Source: an uncultured Pseudomonadota bacterium
GTDB lineage: Bacteria > Myxococcota > UBA796
Assembly: GCA_913040875.1 (NCBI GenBank)
Contig: CAJWHX010000143.1
Span: 1 to 7,885, forward strand
Reading direction: 5' to 3'
DNA length: 7,885 bases
The notes under the pieces are model-generated. The model was not told the DNA's origin, made no database searches, and saw only the letters and a program-made list of their open reading frames with translations. Within the stretch, counting starts at the first letter, position 1, and the number at the start of each line of letters is the position of its first letter. Positions 1 to 7,568 of the stretch are shown one piece after another. The translations under genes were made by a program, and so were the position numbers.

Positions 1-1001
1 TTGCAAACAACCCCAATCTTAAGAGGCTCCCTCAAAACATCGGTCAACCCGAGACCCTTCAGATTGTTTCTCTTGCCAACAACCGACTCTTAGACATCCC
101 AGACAGCATCGGAGACTACAATCACATCACGGAACTGAATGTTGAAGGCAATCAGCTAACTCAACTGCCTTCGACCATCTCGAATCTAATAGAATTACAA
201 GCCCTCAATCTGTCCAACAATCCATATAGCTCACTACCACCAGAAGTGGGTACCCTCAGCAATCTACGTTCGTTGACTTTACATCATCTACCAAATCTAA
301 AAGCCTTACCAATCTTTTCCAACCCTAAAACACTCGAACGACTATCCATCTTAGACTGTCCAAATCTCACAGAAATCACAGAAGATATCCTCCTAGCATC
401 CAAACTCGTGGAACTAAAAATTCAAGCAACAGGTATAGAGAGATTGCCTTCGCAATTATTGAGTTTGCCCAGACTACACGATGTTAAAATTCGTATGAAC
501 CCAAATCTTAGAGAACTCCCCTCCGACATTGGCCACAACGATGCCCTGCGAATACTAAGCATGGATCAAAACAACATCTACATCATTCCAGAGGATCTCG
601 GCCTGCTAAATAGTCTTGAAACACTCAGCCTAGACGAGAATAAAATTGTGACCCTTCCCTCAGCGATCTGCTCACTGCCAAGACTGGAAAAACTCTCCCT
701 CTCTGACAATCAGATCTCCCATCTCTGTGATAACCTCGCAGCTTTACAAAAACTTCGAATGCTCAATATCAACTCCAATCCAATTCACACCCTCCCACCA
801 TCGATAGGAGAGTTACAAACTCTCGAACACATCAATCTTTGGGATGTCCCGTTGCTAACCGAGCCCACTCCGCTCTATGAATTGACCAATCTTCAGGTAC
901 TGTGTTTGAATCCTGCAGATTACTACCCTTCTCCTCAAATCATTCGCAACATCATAAAGAATATCCCATCTCGAGTGGATATCCTCACAACGGATGGATG
1001 A
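1..1001 (+). CDS. Leucine-rich repeat protein, 5' end outside window
   Basis: The reading frame is open from the window edge (first full codon at base 3) to a TGA at 999-1001, giving 332 C-terminal residues. About 13 repeats of 23-24 residues follow the bacterial pattern LxxLxLxxNxLxxLPxxIxxL, for example LQALNLSNNPYSSLPPEV, LETLSLDENKIVTLP and LRMLNINSNPIHTLP. Such repeats form a curved solenoid that normally binds proteins. The last ~30 residues lose the pattern and probably cap the solenoid. No catalytic domain is visible in this part, and the N-terminus, which would show any signal peptide or partner domain, is missing. A GTG at 246 lies in mid-repeat and is not a real start. The next gene begins one codon after the stop in the same frame, so the two are probably co-transcribed. 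The family call is secure; the binding partner is unknown. Confidence 0.93.
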   Translation, partial: ANNPNLKRLPQNIGQPETLQIVSLANNRLLDIPDSIGDYNHITELNVEGNQLTQLPSTISNLIELQALNLSNNPYSSLPPEVGTLSNLRSLTLHHLPNLKALPIFSNPKTLERLSILDCPNLTEITEDILLASKLVELKIQATGIERLPSQLLSLPRLHDVKIRMNPNLRELPSDIGHNDALRILSMDQNNIYIIPEDLGLLNSLETLSLDENKIVTLPSAICSLPRLEKLSLSDNQISHLCDNLAALQKLRMLNINSNPIHTLPPSIGELQTLEHINLWDVPLLTEPTPLYELTNLQVLCLNPADYYPSPQIIRNIIKNIPSRVDILTTDG

Positions 1002-1004
1002 CAG

Positions 1005-1850
1005 ATGATTTTCTTTTGGATGGCGTGCGGATTCAATCCTTCTGAGCCGATAACAGAACAGGACTCTGTATCTGCAGTTGTGACAATCTCTGCAGGCACC
1101 TATCAAATTGGTTCATCAAAGGAACTGAATGTACCACACACACTTCAGAGAACAGTGACACTGACTTATGACTTTGTAATTCAAAGTACCGAAGTCACCT
1201 ATAAACAATGGCTTGCAGTCACGCCAAATCTTCCAAACCAATACTGTGAATCGGGAATACAATCACACCGCATGAGTCCCACTAATCCTGTACGATGTGT
1301 ATCTTGGTGTGATGTTATCGTATTTTCAAATCAAAAGAGTATCTCCGATGGTTATGACCCCGCATACATCATAAATGAAGCCTTTATATCGAATATTGAC
1401 ACGATTTATTGCAATGAACAGGCTCAATTTGTACGATTAAACCAAGACTCCAATGGTTGGCGATTACCGACAGAAGCAGAATGGGAGATAGCCGCAGCTA
1501 TAGATTTGGAAGAAAATGACGAACGTGCATGGTACAAAGGCAACTCAAACGGACATCCACATCCAGTTGCACAATTCGAGCCTAACAAATGGGGGCTATA
1601 TGACACTCGAGGCAATGTATTTGAATGGATCTGGGAGCGATTTGGAGATTATGAATTGAGAACCGTTACAGACCCATTCCATTTTGAAGTGCCATTGATT
1701 GAGGTGTATACACGTCCCATCAAAGGAGGGTCTTATCTAAGTCCAAAAACTGCCCTCGCACCATACAACCGTCCTAATGCTTCCCCTTCGATGATGCATC
1801 CTGCAATCGGATTTCGCCTTGTTCGAACCAACGTATCAAATGATAATTGA
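1005..1850 (+). CDS. FGE/SUMF1-like domain protein, possible lipoprotein
   Basis: 281 residues matching the formylglycine-generating-enzyme-sulfatase fold. Visible signatures are GTYQIGS (31-37), EVTYKQW (63-69), NPVRCVSWCD (94-103), GWRLPTEAEWE (151-161), WGLYDTRGNVFEWIW (196-210), KGGSY (240-244) and GFRLVR (269-274). True FGEs carry two active-site cysteines just after the GGSY/GGSW motif. Here that stretch is SPKTALAPYNRP with no cysteine, so conversion of sulfatase cysteines to formylglycine is unlikely. The domain more probably has a binding or structural role, as in many bacterial relatives. The N-terminus MIFFWMAC resembles the end of a lipoprotein signal with Cys8, but it is far too short for a normal signal peptide. 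The ATG at 1005 follows the LRR stop by one codon, with only a weak GGA at 996-998 as ribosome site, so translation may be coupled to the LRR gene. The fold is confident; export is not. Confidence 0.88.
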   Translation: MIFFWMACGFNPSEPITEQDSVSAVVTISAGTYQIGSSKELNVPHTLQRTVTLTYDFVIQSTEVTYKQWLAVTPNLPNQYCESGIQSHRMSPTNPVRCVSWCDVIVFSNQKSISDGYDPAYIINEAFISNIDTIYCNEQAQFVRLNQDSNGWRLPTEAEWEIAAAIDLEENDERAWYKGNSNGHPHPVAQFEPNKWGLYDTRGNVFEWIWERFGDYELRTVTDPFHFEVPLIEVYTRPIKGGSYLSPKTALAPYNRPNASPSMMHPAIGFRLVRTNVSNDN

Positions 1851-2271: not shown

Positions 2272-2547
2272 ATGACACGCATCACTATACTATCCAGCTT
2301 ACTCATGCTCACCGCTTGCTTTGAAGAAAAAGATTACTGTGACGAATATGTCGATTACATGTGTGAATGTCATGCGGACGACCCGAATTACGATTGCGCC
2401 ACTCAGCAATCCATTTATGAAGATGCCACACTCGACCAACAAACTGCCTGCGCGCTTACTCTCGATGAACAGTTGATCGAGGATGAAGAGAATGGTTTGG
2501 ATTGTGAACTTGGTTCAGATACCGGTACAAGTGATACCGGCGTTTAA
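2272..2547 (+). CDS. Small six-cysteine lipoprotein with Asp-Thr-Gly tail
   Basis: 91 residues. MTRITILSSLLMLTAC is a textbook lipoprotein signal with lipobox LTAC and Cys16. The mature part is very acidic and has six cysteines at 23, 31, 33, 42, 60 and 78, enough for three disulfides, as expected for a protein folded outside the cytoplasm. It ends in GSDTGTSDTGV, a low-complexity Asp-Thr-Gly tail of a kind I associate with predicted surface proteins of myxobacterium-like bacteria (recollection, not checked). The gene has its own extended -10 promoter and a strong ribosome site, so it can be expressed separately from the upstream operon. Its TAA stop overlaps the TAA of the convergent DHFR-LRR gene by four bases (TTAA), leaving no room for a terminator between them. 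The lipoprotein call is firm; the role is unknown. Confidence 0.88.
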   Translation: MTRITILSSLLMLTACFEEKDYCDEYVDYMCECHADDPNYDCATQQSIYEDATLDQQTACALTLDEQLIEDEENGLDCELGSDTGTSDTGV

Positions 2548-5408
2548 GTCGTCTCCTCAAGCGGTTTCGTTTCTGGTTCAGTCAGCACAATTGCATTGAT
2601 CAGACGCTCAAAGGAATCTGGAATGAACTTGCCCTTTTGAACCAAATGCGTATCGCTCATTTCAATACTGAGATAGTTCAACTGTCTAATCCATGACGAC
2701 ATTGGGTATATCATTTCAAACTGTTTTTTGACCAGTATGAGATGCAATCGTCGAAGATTGGGAGTAACCGGGAGCGTATCGGAGCCTGACAATCGATTCG
2801 CCCAGAGCGAAAGTGACCGTAGGGAATTTGACCAACGACTTGGCAACTGAAGATCTCCGGAGATTCGAATAGAACAATCTTGAAGAGTAGAAAGATACTC
2901 AAAATCCGACAAGTCCGTTATCGAATCTATTGACTTAACCACTCTCAGTTTCGAATTGGGAGCAAACTGAATCTCTTCATACTTCACGCTATATAATTCC
3001 AACACTTCGACAGATGCAGGTATGACCAACTTCTTCACCACTGCTTGAGACAGTACCAATTCTTTAATATTCGGCAACTGCTGAATTTGTGTGTGCAACC
3101 GTTCCCAATCCATATCCAGTTCAGTTTTAGGCCTGCCATTGGGACTACTATTAGTATAGCAGCGCCATTCCTCACTCGTATATTCACGGGTAAAATCCAT
3201 TCCCAACACTTGTAGACGTAACAATTTCGAACAGTGATCCAATCCCTCAATGTGCGTTAGCCGGCGACAATCTTTGATAGCAAGCGAATGCACTGGATTG
3301 CTCTCTGGAATAAAAACCTGCTGTAGTTCCGGGCACCATTCCAAACAGACATGTGTATCTCCACCAGTTGGATAGCTCGTCAATGTTTCATCACAATAAT
3401 AATGACTCTCTATCGTGTATTTCTCACTCGACTGACCATATCTAGTCCAATTGTCAATCAGGCTGTAACGTTCTTGATCCGACAAATGGAGAGGGTTGAC
3501 TTCATCTACCACCCAAGACATCCATCGATCAAAATATTGTAGGAACGATGGATACACACCCTCGATCAACACACGGGCCTGTGTAAAATCTTGCTCCTTA
3601 GCGCAGAGCAACTCCAAGATCTTATGCAAGTGTGGAGAATCCATCAATGCCCGAACTCCTCGTAAAAATGCACATACTCCCGATATTTCGGAGCCATTAT
3701 AACGCTCAAAGAGGAATCCAAAAGTACCCTCCAAACGGATTAGGTTAGGCAATCCTTCCACGACATCACATCGTTCCAAATAAGAACTTTCCCAACGACG
3801 GGCATAAAGATGGGTCAAAGACACAGGCAATCGAACAAGGCTTGTGATGCTCTCCAAGACAATCAAATGCGACACTTGCATCTCAGTCAAATCCATCTCA
3901 GCATCCAACGTCAACACGATTAGATACGTAGAAGAATCCCCAAAGGCAACAGGCTTCATCGACAGACCAGACACCAATGCATTGTATATATACTGTTCTT
4001 GATCTTCTCTAGAAGTATCCGCTGACCAATTAAAAAGACCCTTTGGTACGTCGATAATCCGCTCACAGACCAACAGTCCATCTACACAATCGACAGTTGC
4101 ATACCCACTCAAGTCATTCCAACGAACAGACCAGCCTTTTGCTTGATCAGCCTCTTTATGGTTGTTTTGGAGATAAGCCATCACAGTCGGTTGTACCAAG
4201 ATAAACTGTGGTGACACCACCCGTTCGCCTTTATGCAGCGGAAAGAACACGTCAATCCAAGACAATGTATCGGATAACGCCAGTTTCCACTCTGCTTGTT
4301 CACCTCTGTACAAAGCATCGTATCGATTGCGGTGCCCCTTCAAAAATGAAAACTTTGAAACAAGCACGACCCACAGTCGATCCTCATACCGATGTTGACT
4401 ATACTTATCTCTTGGTTCAAGTTCATCCGTATCAAAACTATACCCAAAACTTTCTGTAGGACCATACGCCTGCTCACAAGACTCCAATTCTATCACTCGA
4501 AATGATTCCAGTTCATCCAACAATTGACTCCAATGGTCTGGGTAGTCTCCATAGTCAACCATGAAATACTCGTCTGTTACACCATCATCGATCTGCACAT
4601 AAATATCCGAATACGAGCCTGCACCATCGTCATAGGTGTAGTCCACCCACATTGAAACATTAGAAATTTCAGGATCTCCACTCTGTACTGTATTGGAATT
4701 ATAGACATTAAGTCGCTCGAGAGTATGTTGACGTATAAACATCCACTGGAGATACTCGTCGTGTGAACTTTCAGCATCATAAGCGTGAGGCTCCAAACTA
4801 TCTACTTCTATACGACCCAAAGAAGAGGTATTCAAACACTTATCTTCGTAAACGGCTTCTTCTCCTGCGAAAGCTAGAATACAAGCATGAAAATCATCTA
4901 GATGGGATACAAAACCATTGAATGGTCGTATTTTCTGCAACCGTTGAAAGGTGACATCGGGATGCTGTTCTTCCCAAACGACAGGCCATTCATTTAAATC
5001 CTTCAGTGGCAAAAAACGATCGCATCCATAAGTTCCAGGTATACGTGAGAGAACAAACTCATCAATAATCGAAAGTGTCGCCTCAATTAGTGTTGCGCCA
5101 CCGATGATCCAAATTATTTTTCCAGGATGGATGTATTGCAAATCTAGAATTCGCTGTATGATATTGCCTTGGATCACACCATCGGCTTCTGAACAAACGT
5201 CTGGATTTCGGGTCACCACATAGGAGAGTCTATCGGATACCGGATGCCCGAGTTGTGAATCCTGCCATGTCGTCCGTCCCATGACCATCACGTGTCCTTT
5301 GGTCTGGTCCATAAACCATTGAAAGTCCACAGGAATATGTGGCCACGGCATTTTACCATTTAGTCCTACTCCACCAGATTCATCACAGGCTAATATTGCT
5401 TTGATCAT
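2544..5408 (-). CDS. Dihydrofolate reductase domain fused to LRR-like protein (954 aa)
   Basis: Residues 1-160 are a DHFR domain, the NADPH-dependent enzyme that makes tetrahydrofolate. Visible landmarks are KMPW (19-22), the catalytic acid Asp28 in PVDFQWF, MGRTTW (43-48), Arg60, IIGGA (101-105) and SRIPGTYGCDRFLP (121-134). Against E. coli DHFR, Tyr100 is replaced by Ile108 and Thr113 by Ser121. Normal DHFRs end near residue 160, but this frame runs on for about 790 residues. Residues ~200-330 are rich in acidic and aromatic residues. Irregular LRR-like segments appear at ~505-570 and ~685-920, such as HSLAIKDCRRLTHI, IKELVLSQAVVKKLVIP and NSLRSLSLWANRLSGS. I see no signal peptide or membrane segment, so the protein is probably cytoplasmic. 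The start lies 11 nt after the upstream gene's stop with a weak ribosome site (TTGAGTG), suggesting coupled translation. No thyA lies next to it within the window. The DHFR call is firm; the tail's function is unknown. Confidence 0.9.
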   Translation of the reverse strand: MIKAILACDESGGVGLNGKMPWPHIPVDFQWFMDQTKGHVMVMGRTTWQDSQLGHPVSDRLSYVVTRNPDVCSEADGVIQGNIIQRILDLQYIHPGKIIWIIGGATLIEATLSIIDEFVLSRIPGTYGCDRFLPLKDLNEWPVVWEEQHPDVTFQRLQKIRPFNGFVSHLDDFHACILAFAGEEAVYEDKCLNTSSLGRIEVDSLEPHAYDAESSHDEYLQWMFIRQHTLERLNVYNSNTVQSGDPEISNVSMWVDYTYDDGAGSYSDIYVQIDDGVTDEYFMVDYGDYPDHWSQLLDELESFRVIELESCEQAYGPTESFGYSFDTDELEPRDKYSQHRYEDRLWVVLVSKFSFLKGHRNRYDALYRGEQAEWKLALSDTLSWIDVFFPLHKGERVVSPQFILVQPTVMAYLQNNHKEADQAKGWSVRWNDLSGYATVDCVDGLLVCERIIDVPKGLFNWSADTSREDQEQYIYNALVSGLSMKPVAFGDSSTYLIVLTLDAEMDLTEMQVSHLIVLESITSLVRLPVSLTHLYARRWESSYLERCDVVEGLPNLIRLEGTFGFLFERYNGSEISGVCAFLRGVRALMDSPHLHKILELLCAKEQDFTQARVLIEGVYPSFLQYFDRWMSWVVDEVNPLHLSDQERYSLIDNWTRYGQSSEKYTIESHYYCDETLTSYPTGGDTHVCLEWCPELQQVFIPESNPVHSLAIKDCRRLTHIEGLDHCSKLLRLQVLGMDFTREYTSEEWRCYTNSSPNGRPKTELDMDWERLHTQIQQLPNIKELVLSQAVVKKLVIPASVEVLELYSVKYEEIQFAPNSKLRVVKSIDSITDLSDFEYLSTLQDCSIRISGDLQLPSRWSNSLRSLSLWANRLSGSDTLPVTPNLRRLHLILVKKQFEMIYPMSSWIRQLNYLSIEMSDTHLVQKGKFIPDSFERLINAIVLTEPETKPLEETT

Positions 5409-5419
5409 AGTACACTCAA

Positions 5420-6133
5420 CTAAGACAGGGTTGCTCCCTCAAGTGTACTTCTTTGAAACCAAAACTGCAACGGCTCTTCTGTCACACGATGTTTGGCACA
5501 CACCAACACAGGATCCATCGTAGAATCAATCAATGCTGCATTATCCGCGTCAAAGTGAAAGGTTTTTAACAGCTGATTGGCAACCGACGCATCGACCACC
5601 TTAATGGGAGTACTCTCCAAGCGACCTAAAAAATCTTCAAGCACCTGTCTTGATGCATCGACTATTCCTTTCCAATTCCAGGTTAGACGAGGATATCCAA
5701 AATAGTCATGAGTATGGTAATACAACGGTCCGCAGAGCAACAAACGCTGTGCCTTCGCCTCTACGTATCCATGACTTCGATCACTGATAATAACTTGCTC
5801 TTGCAACTCAGATGAAGGCAAGGGTCTGTCGAACATTTTGGCAAATACCTGATCCGATAGCACCTCAGAATCAATGCGACTAAATCCTGAGGGGACAGAC
5901 TCTTCTATATGTCCTGGATGATACATATCAAAATACAACTCTACAAATTTTTCACCCGTGAGATCCATTATGGCATAGCCATCTAAAAGATTTCCCTCTG
6001 TACGAAAACTCCCCATACGTTTGTAGCGAATAAACCCATGAGTCTCCGACACCAACTGATGTAAATAGCTCCGTTCGCCGATGGGCGCATCACATCGAAT
6101 GGGGTTGTCTATGGTTCCAAGTGTCGATATCAT
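5420..6133 (-). CDS. Uncharacterised protein upstream of DHFR-LRR gene (237 aa)
   Basis: I do not recognise a named family. Starting from the ATG at 6133-6131 the protein has 237 residues. Stretches that look conserved by composition are NPIRCDAPIGERSYLHQL (residues 10-27), GSFRTEGNLLDGYAI (41-55), ELYFDMYHPGHIEE (65-78) and a Trp/Tyr-rich block, PLYYHTHDYFGYPRLTWNW (136-154). Histidines, aspartates and tyrosines are frequent, but no catalytic motif can be named. There is no signal peptide or membrane segment, so a soluble cytoplasmic protein is likely. The start was chosen because AAGGA (6145-6141) lies 7 nt upstream of it. An in-frame ATG at 6157 would add eight residues but has no ribosome site and sits almost on a possible -10. 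The gene precedes the DHFR-LRR gene by 11 nt, so the two are probably one transcript and may act together. Confidence 0.78.
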   Translation of the reverse strand: MISTLGTIDNPIRCDAPIGERSYLHQLVSETHGFIRYKRMGSFRTEGNLLDGYAIMDLTGEKFVELYFDMYHPGHIEESVPSGFSRIDSEVLSDQVFAKMFDRPLPSSELQEQVIISDRSHGYVEAKAQRLLLCGPLYYHTHDYFGYPRLTWNWKGIVDASRQVLEDFLGRLESTPIKVVDASVANQLLKTFHFDADNAALIDSTMDPVLVCAKHRVTEEPLQFWFQRSTLEGATLS

Positions 6134-6140
6134 CCTGCAA

Positions 6141-6145
6141 TCCTT
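6141..6145 (-). promoter_or_regulatory. Ribosome binding site AAGGA deciding the start at 6133
   Basis: On the minus strand AAGGA stands 7 nt before the ATG at 6133. The alternative ATG at 6157 has no comparable site, so the shorter protein is preferred. Confidence 0.65.
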
Positions 6146-6186
6146 GTTGGAAATCATTCAGTTATATTGCTCTCTTTACAGAGCGT

Positions 6187-6344: not shown

Positions 6345-7568
6345 ATGCTGCATTCTGCATTTGGTATACGCAGTATACAAGTCCCACCAAATGTCAACGC
6401 ATGTGCTAGTCTATGGGTAAAGGTGAAATTGGTGGACAGGTACATACTTGTGCACAAACGACTAATTATTGGGACTGCATATAAAAATGTAGACCCTAGG
6501 CACTTCTGTGTCTGCAAACTGTCCCGGGGGGGTACTGTGATTCCAAAAGAGCTTATCAACTTTCTCAAACAACTTCCAAATGGTCAACTGGAAATTGCCT
6601 ATGAGAATCTAACATACCAAAAAGAATGTATATCTGAACCTACACCGTCTACGCTGACAAGCAAAGAAGATATGGTCTCACTTCTGTGTTCCTTTCCATA
6701 TCTAGAGTTGCTCAATGAACTGATTGAATACGAAACATCTGACGGACACTCTCTACAATGTGAACTGGGCATTCTATATCAGAAGTGCAGCTGCATTGAA
6801 AGTGAACAGGCTCTCTTCCATTCTTTACTTCGAAAGCATCACTCCTACGGCTATCGAATGGAATTGTTTGAAGATTTTTCACAAAGCATTGACTGGCTAG
6901 AAGAGCCATTTGAACGAATCGTTGGAGTTTTGGCCCAGCAAAATGTGGGGTTCTTGCTTGAAACAAACCGCACGTGGTCTGATCCATTTTTCGCCATCGA
7001 GGTTCGAGCCTCTGAAGATGTCTCCCTGACTGAATTGCAACTGTTTGCGTATCTCGCCAAGTACAAATACTCGGCGGATTTTGAAGCGGAATACTGTCAG
7101 CACACCTATCAAACAGTTCATTATGAACACCCTATCCGATTGTTCTTTGATACGTATGCACCTGTCAATGAAGAGTTGTTACCAGACTGGAACCAAGCAT
7201 TGAACGATTTGTGCAGTCAAGATGCGTCCTGCCGCGTACGTGGAAGTGAGCTTTTGCTAGAAGTCGTGTCTCGTAGTTCCTCGATGCAAGAGTCTCTTTC
7301 CTTATTCGTGTCGGATGACTGTATCGAACCTCCAGAAACCTATCCCTTGTTCGAAAGAGAGTTGTGCTCTTCCAAGTCTTTACTGTCCGCGCTCTGGTTG
7401 TACACATATCTAGATATCGACTCTCCAAAGACTCTTACCTTAGCTAAAAAATGGGGTTCGGCAGACTATGAGGACTTAATGAAGCCCATCAGAGCCCTGT
7501 TCAATCCAATTTTCGATTGTGTACAGACTCAACAAATGCAAAATCGAACCTTTGAATCAACAGAATAA
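6345..7568 (+). CDS. Uncharacterised protein, up to 407 aa, start uncertain
   Basis: I do not recognise the family. The longest frame starts at the ATG at 6345 and ends with TAA at 7566-7568. From about residue 65 onward the protein looks genuine: acidic, helix-rich, with many Leu, Glu, Tyr and Cys, for example IPKELINFLKQLPNGQLEI, LFHSLLRKHHSYGYRMELF and SLLSALWLYTYLD. The first ~64 residues differ: they are basic and Val/Ile-rich, and the codon run includes two AGG, CGG and GGG. No ribosome site precedes 6345. In-frame alternatives are GTG 6423, GTG 6537 just after a run of seven Gs, and ATG 6672 behind AAGAAG. There is no signal peptide or membrane helix. The gene is divergent from the DHFR-LRR operon and may share its control region. 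It ends 12 nt from the convergent pseudouridine synthase. That a gene exists is likely; its start and function are unknown. Confidence 0.72.
   Translation: MLHSAFGIRSIQVPPNVNACASLWVKVKLVDRYILVHKRLIIGTAYKNVDPRHFCVCKLSRGGTVIPKELINFLKQLPNGQLEIAYENLTYQKECISEPTPSTLTSKEDMVSLLCSFPYLELLNELIEYETSDGHSLQCELGILYQKCSCIESEQALFHSLLRKHHSYGYRMELFEDFSQSIDWLEEPFERIVGVLAQQNVGFLLETNRTWSDPFFAIEVRASEDVSLTELQLFAYLAKYKYSADFEAEYCQHTYQTVHYEHPIRLFFDTYAPVNEELLPDWNQALNDLCSQDASCRVRGSELLLEVVSRSSSMQESLSLFVSDDCIEPPETYPLFERELCSSKSLLSALWLYTYLDIDSPKTLTLAKKWGSADYEDLMKPIRALFNPIFDCVQTQQMQNRTFESTE

Follow-up and report, generated by a model that had tools for sequence, protein, structure and literature searches.

Dihydrofolate reductase (DHFR) is a standard model for the effects of fusions and mutations on an enzyme. 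The joining of DHFR to other domains is already known from bifunctional DHFR-thymidylate synthase, from the N-terminus of the NCBIfam model NF001751 and from long viral proteins annotated as DHFR. To our knowledge, natural DHFR fusions besides DHFR-thymidylate synthase are few. Most bacteria have folA (PMC1971073). In the part of that survey of bacterial folate genes considered here, several pathway fusions are described, including that of a flavin-dependent reductase, distinct from folA, to dihydropteroate synthase in bacteria, and a folA fusion of the kind reported below is not mentioned (PMC1971073). In the part considered of a second article, the DHFR of jumbo phages is treated together with thymidylate synthase (PMC7824862). 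No report of a natural DHFR-LRR fusion was found among the listed titles and abstract openings of open-licence papers.

The window, which is the whole stretch of 7,885 nucleotides that was analysed, carries a DHFR domain at the head of a much longer open frame. It probably represents an ordinary DHFR of a free-standing clade that, in one lineage, acquired a lineage-specific protein of about 790 residues as an in-frame extension of its natural C-terminus. The fusion looks private and recent, or like a sequence error, rather than like a new kind of enzyme.

Extent of the frame and state of the DHFR domain

The fusion ORF begins with an ATG and runs on the minus strand from 5408 to 2544 for 954 codons without interruption. 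The preliminary description of an apparently functional DHFR that continues without a stop into a long extra region is supported. At the base composition of the window, 792 codons would stay open by chance with a probability of about 1e-19. Codon scores trained on the window's other genes were positive for the fusion frame and negative for the other five frames in all five pieces tested (the DHFR and four pieces of the tail), stop codons pulling the other-frame scores down. With stops set aside, the mean coding score was 0.24 in frame, 0.01 off frame and -0.08 in intergenic DNA.

The domain has the DHFR fold and matches DHFR_1 (PF00186) in Pfam over residues 1-150 with 92.8 bits against a cut-off of 25. 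The active-site motifs reported earlier (D28, KMPW, MGRTTW and IIGGA) are all present in the translation, as are the conserved residues F32, T36, R45, T47, R60 and G103-G104. Together with D28, these presumably correspond, in position and role, to the acidic catalytic D27 and to F31, T35, R44, T46, R57 and the GG pair of E. coli DHFR. A free-standing DHFR is a chain of about 160 residues, and the frame here is open for 954; the fusion product is a protein with a DHFR domain and not a free-standing DHFR. The window departs in 1 of 96 columns that are invariant among its nine closest relatives, against 0 to 6 departures for each of the nine in a leave-one-out comparison, so the domain is, judged from its sequence, evolving like a working DHFR, with no decay.

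Two substitutions, Tyr100 to Ile and Thr113 to Ser (in what we take to be E. coli numbering), had been read as a hint of altered ligand handling. Both changes are present; the hint is unsupported because free-standing relatives carry the same two residues, with Ser at the E. coli 113 position in all nine of the closest and Ile at 100 in eight. The Ile100/Ser113 pair is also carried by L010, L011 and L012, which had the lowest E-values of the cellular loci in the genome contig search; the rest of the 69 cellular DHFRs examined lack the pair. On the sequence evidence, the two residues are a signature of a DHFR subfamily and are uninformative about the fusion. Positions of the features are collected in Table 1.

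Table 1. Features of the fusion ORF and of the ORF that precedes it, in window coordinates
Feature	Position	Strand	Basis or remark
DHFR domain, residues 1-160 of the fusion ORF	4929..5408	-	
Junction, residues 161-222	4743..4928	-	C-ends of DHFR relatives, coding score, start-codon list
Acidic region, residues 163-360	4329..4922	-	pI 4.21; no Pfam match
Mid-tail, residues 361-690	3339..4328	-	No Pfam match
Possibly weakly LRR-like C-terminal region, residues 691-954	2547..3338	-	LRR-gene profile, sub-cut-off Pfam LRR_4
Best single LRR-type motif, residues 863-873 (LRSLSLWANRL)	2790..2822	-	Motif score 10
ORF of 245 aa, no known family	5420..6157	-	11 bp before the fusion ORF, same strand

Free-standing relatives and the junction

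Searching 5.8 billion proteins with a DHFR profile yielded 262 matches, the best 120 of which are 153-184 aa long. Among the matches listed, nine relatives (P0040, P0048, P0059 and others) share 78-87% identity with the window's domain and have 160-165 aa. They form a close clade with 75-94% mutual identity, and their chains end three to eight residues past a shared FQRL, which is the window's junction. P0040 and P0059, at 87% identity, are encoded on contigs of up to 104 and 44 kb. The 61 DHFRs of a maximum-likelihood tree comprised the window, all 22 proteins with at least 55% identity from the 120 listed, 10 drawn from the remaining 98 and, from the 80 viral and 70 cellular loci, 15 and 13 respectively. 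In this tree, the window falls inside a ten-row clade (support 99/97) on an end branch of 0.077, and that clade lies inside a 23-row clade (100/99), every other row of which is a free-standing DHFR. In the genomes, 68 of the 70 bacterial and archaeal DHFR loci meet a stop codon no more than 171 codons after the match start; of the remaining two, L065 stops at 282 codons and L079, a partial match, at 84. Viral loci behave similarly: a stop follows within 197 codons in 75 of 80, and the other 5 reach the end of their contig first.

No second sequence with the DHFR-tail order was found in the protein, genome, viral, phage and plasmid searches, and the fusion protein itself did not appear among the matches listed from the 5.8-billion protein set. 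Among 131 candidate long proteins, no fused DHFR relative reached E <= 1e-3, in a search of low sensitivity that also missed the known DHFR-thymidylate synthases. A tblastn search with the whole protein returned 598 phage and 138 plasmid records; among the 15 listed for each, no single place covered 80% of the query. The preliminary description had pointed to a local fusion or an assembly error in the case that homologues end near residue 160 and the rest exists as a separate gene. The relatives seen do end there; no separate gene for the tail came to light.

The close clade was not met in the scans of genome contigs, which used a few exact patterns, and its hosts may be absent from that collection. 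The DHFR P0059 was sought phylum by phylum, and 16 of 245 genomes in the phylum of G001 matched at E <= 1e-30 (best identity 47%), as did one of 398 in that of G003 (50% identity), with no matches among 288 genomes of the phylum of G007 and 251 of that of G004. L010, L011 and L012 each encode a free-standing DHFR followed directly by an ORF whose sequence, judged without a profile search, looks like that of thymidylate synthase. In L010 (5992-7356) and L011 (5992-7346), the DHFR precedes this thyA-like ORF between the same flanking genes in two genomes. Their DHFR subfamily is otherwise rich in viral contigs, and 15 of the 16 genomes (out of 245) in the phylum of L010 with a P0059 match are 1.1 Mb or smaller. 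An old exchange between phage and cell is possible in this subfamily. A crude four-residue thyA signature, scored without a control, lies within 2.5 kb of 60 of 69 cellular and 62 of 80 viral loci.

The most economical account is a join at the natural C-terminus of the DHFR. The DHFR relatives seen are unfused, and the nine closest end at the junction. Residues 163-222, between the end of the DHFR and the first in-frame ATG, have a coding score of 0.23 with stops set aside, and the score of residues 163-191 is reached by 2.2% of off-frame windows. The stretch is coding-like and therefore unlike intergenic DNA newly read through. The first in-frame ATG or GTG after the DHFR is at residue 223, preceded by TTG codons at 192, 197 and 205. 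A GGAG-type site is found at none of the nine in-frame starts from residue 157 to 283. Of the 13 in-frame start codons in residues 157-308, it is near two, TTG 296 and TTG 297, where GGAG is placed 4 and 7 nt upstream. Five gene starts of the window were checked for such a site; two have it and three, including that of the DHFR, lack it. Because the two TTG codons have GGAG upstream and the DHFR start has no such site, an internal start at TTG 296 or 297 within the fusion ORF may be possible.

The main alternative is an artefact or an unfixed stop-loss, in which a base error, a misassembly or a recent allele joins a free-standing DHFR to a downstream orphan gene. The stop of the nine closest relatives at the junction (at up to 87% identity) and the short chains of the best 120 matches are expected under this account, and the fusion is unique among everything found. 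The tile over the junction, residues 151-180, also has the lowest in-frame coding score (0.03) of twelve 30-codon tiles across residues 121-315. However, a separate gene starting from ATG 223 would leave residues 163-222 non-coding, and these are coding-like in the fused frame. In addition, the two out-of-frame readings at the junction give ends unlike those of the relatives. Because the fusion is a singleton, an error or stop-loss between overlapping or abutting genes stays in contention, as a doubtful but by no means negligible account. The singleton status, the tail without relatives, the coding dip at 151-180 and the internal TTG starts with GGAG all count against the account of a genuine fusion.

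The tail and its possible role

The middle region of the chain had been described as acidic, and it is: residues 163-360 contain 21% D+E and 6% K+R. The description of everything after the DHFR as a protein of about 790 LRR-like residues was not borne out. The best Pfam LRR match in the tail, LRR_4, has 10.2 bits against a cut-off of 27, and 3 LRR motifs were observed over the tail with 2.82 expected. Autocorrelation, with 300 shuffles each, detected no repeat in residues 690-954 (P 0.73) or 770-900 (P 0.69), whereas the neighbouring LRR gene showed a clear repeat at shift 23 (P 0.000). A signal at shift 32 in residues 481-570 (P 0.013) does not correspond to an LRR length. A Fourier period of 25.5 in residues 163-480 (P 0.005) was dropped, as another residue set gave P 0.81 and the same analysis failed on the known LRR gene.

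A profile was made from eleven repeats of the neighbouring LRR gene, picked by position. On residues 691-954, one of four pieces tested, it scored 9.9 bits (P 0.001 of 1000 shuffles), and the other three pieces were at chance, including 163-480 (P 0.287) and 481-690 (P 0.329). A scan of the whole chain with this profile reported a single stretch, residues 863-874, at 4.7 bits. BLASTP against the window's other ORFs gave a lowest E of 0.10, between residues 687-741 and the LRR gene at 3-1001. In the full-length structural model, the tail is mostly below pLDDT 50, with helices predicted at residues 572-655 (block pLDDT 42-78) and paired short strands at 783-826 (block pLDDT 50-70); residues 480-954 folded alone had a mean pLDDT of 36.5. 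The strands at 783-826 would fit a solenoid in this low-confidence prediction. The last 260 or so residues are possibly, and at most, weakly LRR-like.

Residues 161-954 as query against 5.8 billion proteins gave 6189 candidates, limited to 0.55-1.75 times 954 aa (about 525-1670 aa), none with E <= 1. Six exact 8-residue patterns for the whole protein returned 17 stretches in genome contigs and no relative, and six exact patterns for the tail returned nothing in viral contigs. A search of 149 genomes from the phylum of G001, run without positive control, found nothing for the tail. Pfam and NCBIfam gave no tail match above cut-off, and PADLOC and PHROGs gave none. Matches from Foldseek against viral structures and from the VIA comparison of the whole model were taken up by the DHFR part and are uninformative on the tail.

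For the preferred reading, a free-standing DHFR fused at its C-terminus to an orphan protein in one lineage only, the DHFR half is predicted from its sequence to reduce dihydrofolate with NADPH as usual. The tail would fold separately and be carried along. Its last 260 or so residues might form a weak LRR-type binding surface, which could tether the enzyme to a partner; this is a guess. The sequence analyses gave no evidence for the tail altering catalysis. If the fusion is real and expressed, an intact DHFR with an orphan tail would be a test case for the birth of new domain combinations.

Stronger roles can be imagined. The orphan, partly LRR-like tail of a fixed fusion could localise or regulate a working DHFR, coupling the supply of tetrahydrofolate to a partner, or could signal folate or NADPH occupancy; this reading as a whole is unlikely. 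A related proposal makes the two halves a regulated unit, with the DHFR serving as a folate/NADPH sensor or the tail recruiting it to a partner. It draws on an intact ligand-binding domain joined to a region with a weakly LRR-like end, but the active-site residues, including the Ile/Ser pair, match those of ordinary free-standing relatives. Moreover, the arrangement was not found conserved and no partner gene was recognised nearby, and the proposal is rated improbable.

The neighbouring genes and comparison with known systems

The ORF of 245 aa had no match in Pfam, NCBIfam or PADLOC and a PHROGs match at E 0.4 at best; it possibly shares a transcript with the fusion ORF. An ORF of 407 aa at 6345-7568 (+) likewise belongs to no family above cut-off in four profile libraries, and the weak matches of the two ORFs are limited to Pfam at E 0.17 and a PHROG at E 0.4. 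On the other side, an LRR protein gene at 3-1001 (+) is open at the 5' edge of the window and has regular repeats of about 23 residues. It is followed on the same strand by a gene like FGE/sulfatase-modifying factor at 1005-1850 (+). A small lipoprotein-like ORF at 2272-2547 (+) forms a convergent pair with the fusion ORF, their stop codons overlapping at 2544-2547. The lipoprotein-like and FGE-type neighbours may resemble those of Myxococcota. The C-terminal piece of an RluA-type gene is also present, and it had a match in 12 of 13 genomes (best 64.9 bits, 40% identity), a result that does not place the host lineage. The window has no Rfam match and no tRNA. Between 2000 and 6600, 15 promoter-like sites were counted with 10.6 expected (sd 2.9), and 3 terminator-like sites with 2.9 expected. 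No partner gene was recognised near the fusion ORF in Pfam, NCBIfam, PADLOC or PHROGs.

A phage or prophage protein at a viral locus is suggested by the viral members of the DHFR subfamily (80 of 91 viral-contig relatives were kept, 34-51% identical except for one 50-residue match at 62%) and by a first quick tree, made without the close relatives, that placed the window on a long branch among viral DHFRs; it is highly improbable, as that tree is superseded by the finer one for the window's nearest kin, the 23-row clade holds no viral-contig rows (its protein-database rows may be of any origin), the viral contigs yielded no member of the close clade, the best full-length viral match is 51%, and the neighbours are LRR, FGE-type and RluA-type genes.

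Several known systems resemble the fusion in part. Bifunctional DHFR-thymidylate synthase also holds a DHFR within a longer protein (PDB 8dae was matched to residues 4-149), but it has a thymidylate synthase domain, and none was detected by Pfam in the 954 aa of the window's protein. Bacterial LRR proteins, such as the gene at 3-1001, share a weak profile similarity with residues 691-954; unlike them, the tail has no Pfam LRR above cut-off and no regular period. NF001751 (PRK00478, named segregation and condensation protein A, 505 positions) has a DHFR-like N-terminal part as well, and its positions 1-153 match residues 1-159 with E 9.6e-8. The score is 31.3 bits against a cut-off of 436, and the remainder of the model has no counterpart in the tail; the match presumably reflects a DHFR-ScpA fusion in mycoplasmas. 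Foldseek recovered four Pandoravirus entries of 894-1349 aa, annotated with a DHFR domain or motif, that also place a DHFR-like domain in a long chain. Viral entries of 537-579 aa, one of them named Erwinia phage DHFR, do the same, and PHROG 11777 was matched at positions 376-518 of 546. The likeness to these long viral proteins is limited to the DHFR part, and the long Pandoravirus alignments have an rmsd of 29-41. The closest counterparts are the free-standing DHFRs of the close clade, which have the same active-site residues as the window and end where its chain continues for about 790 residues more.
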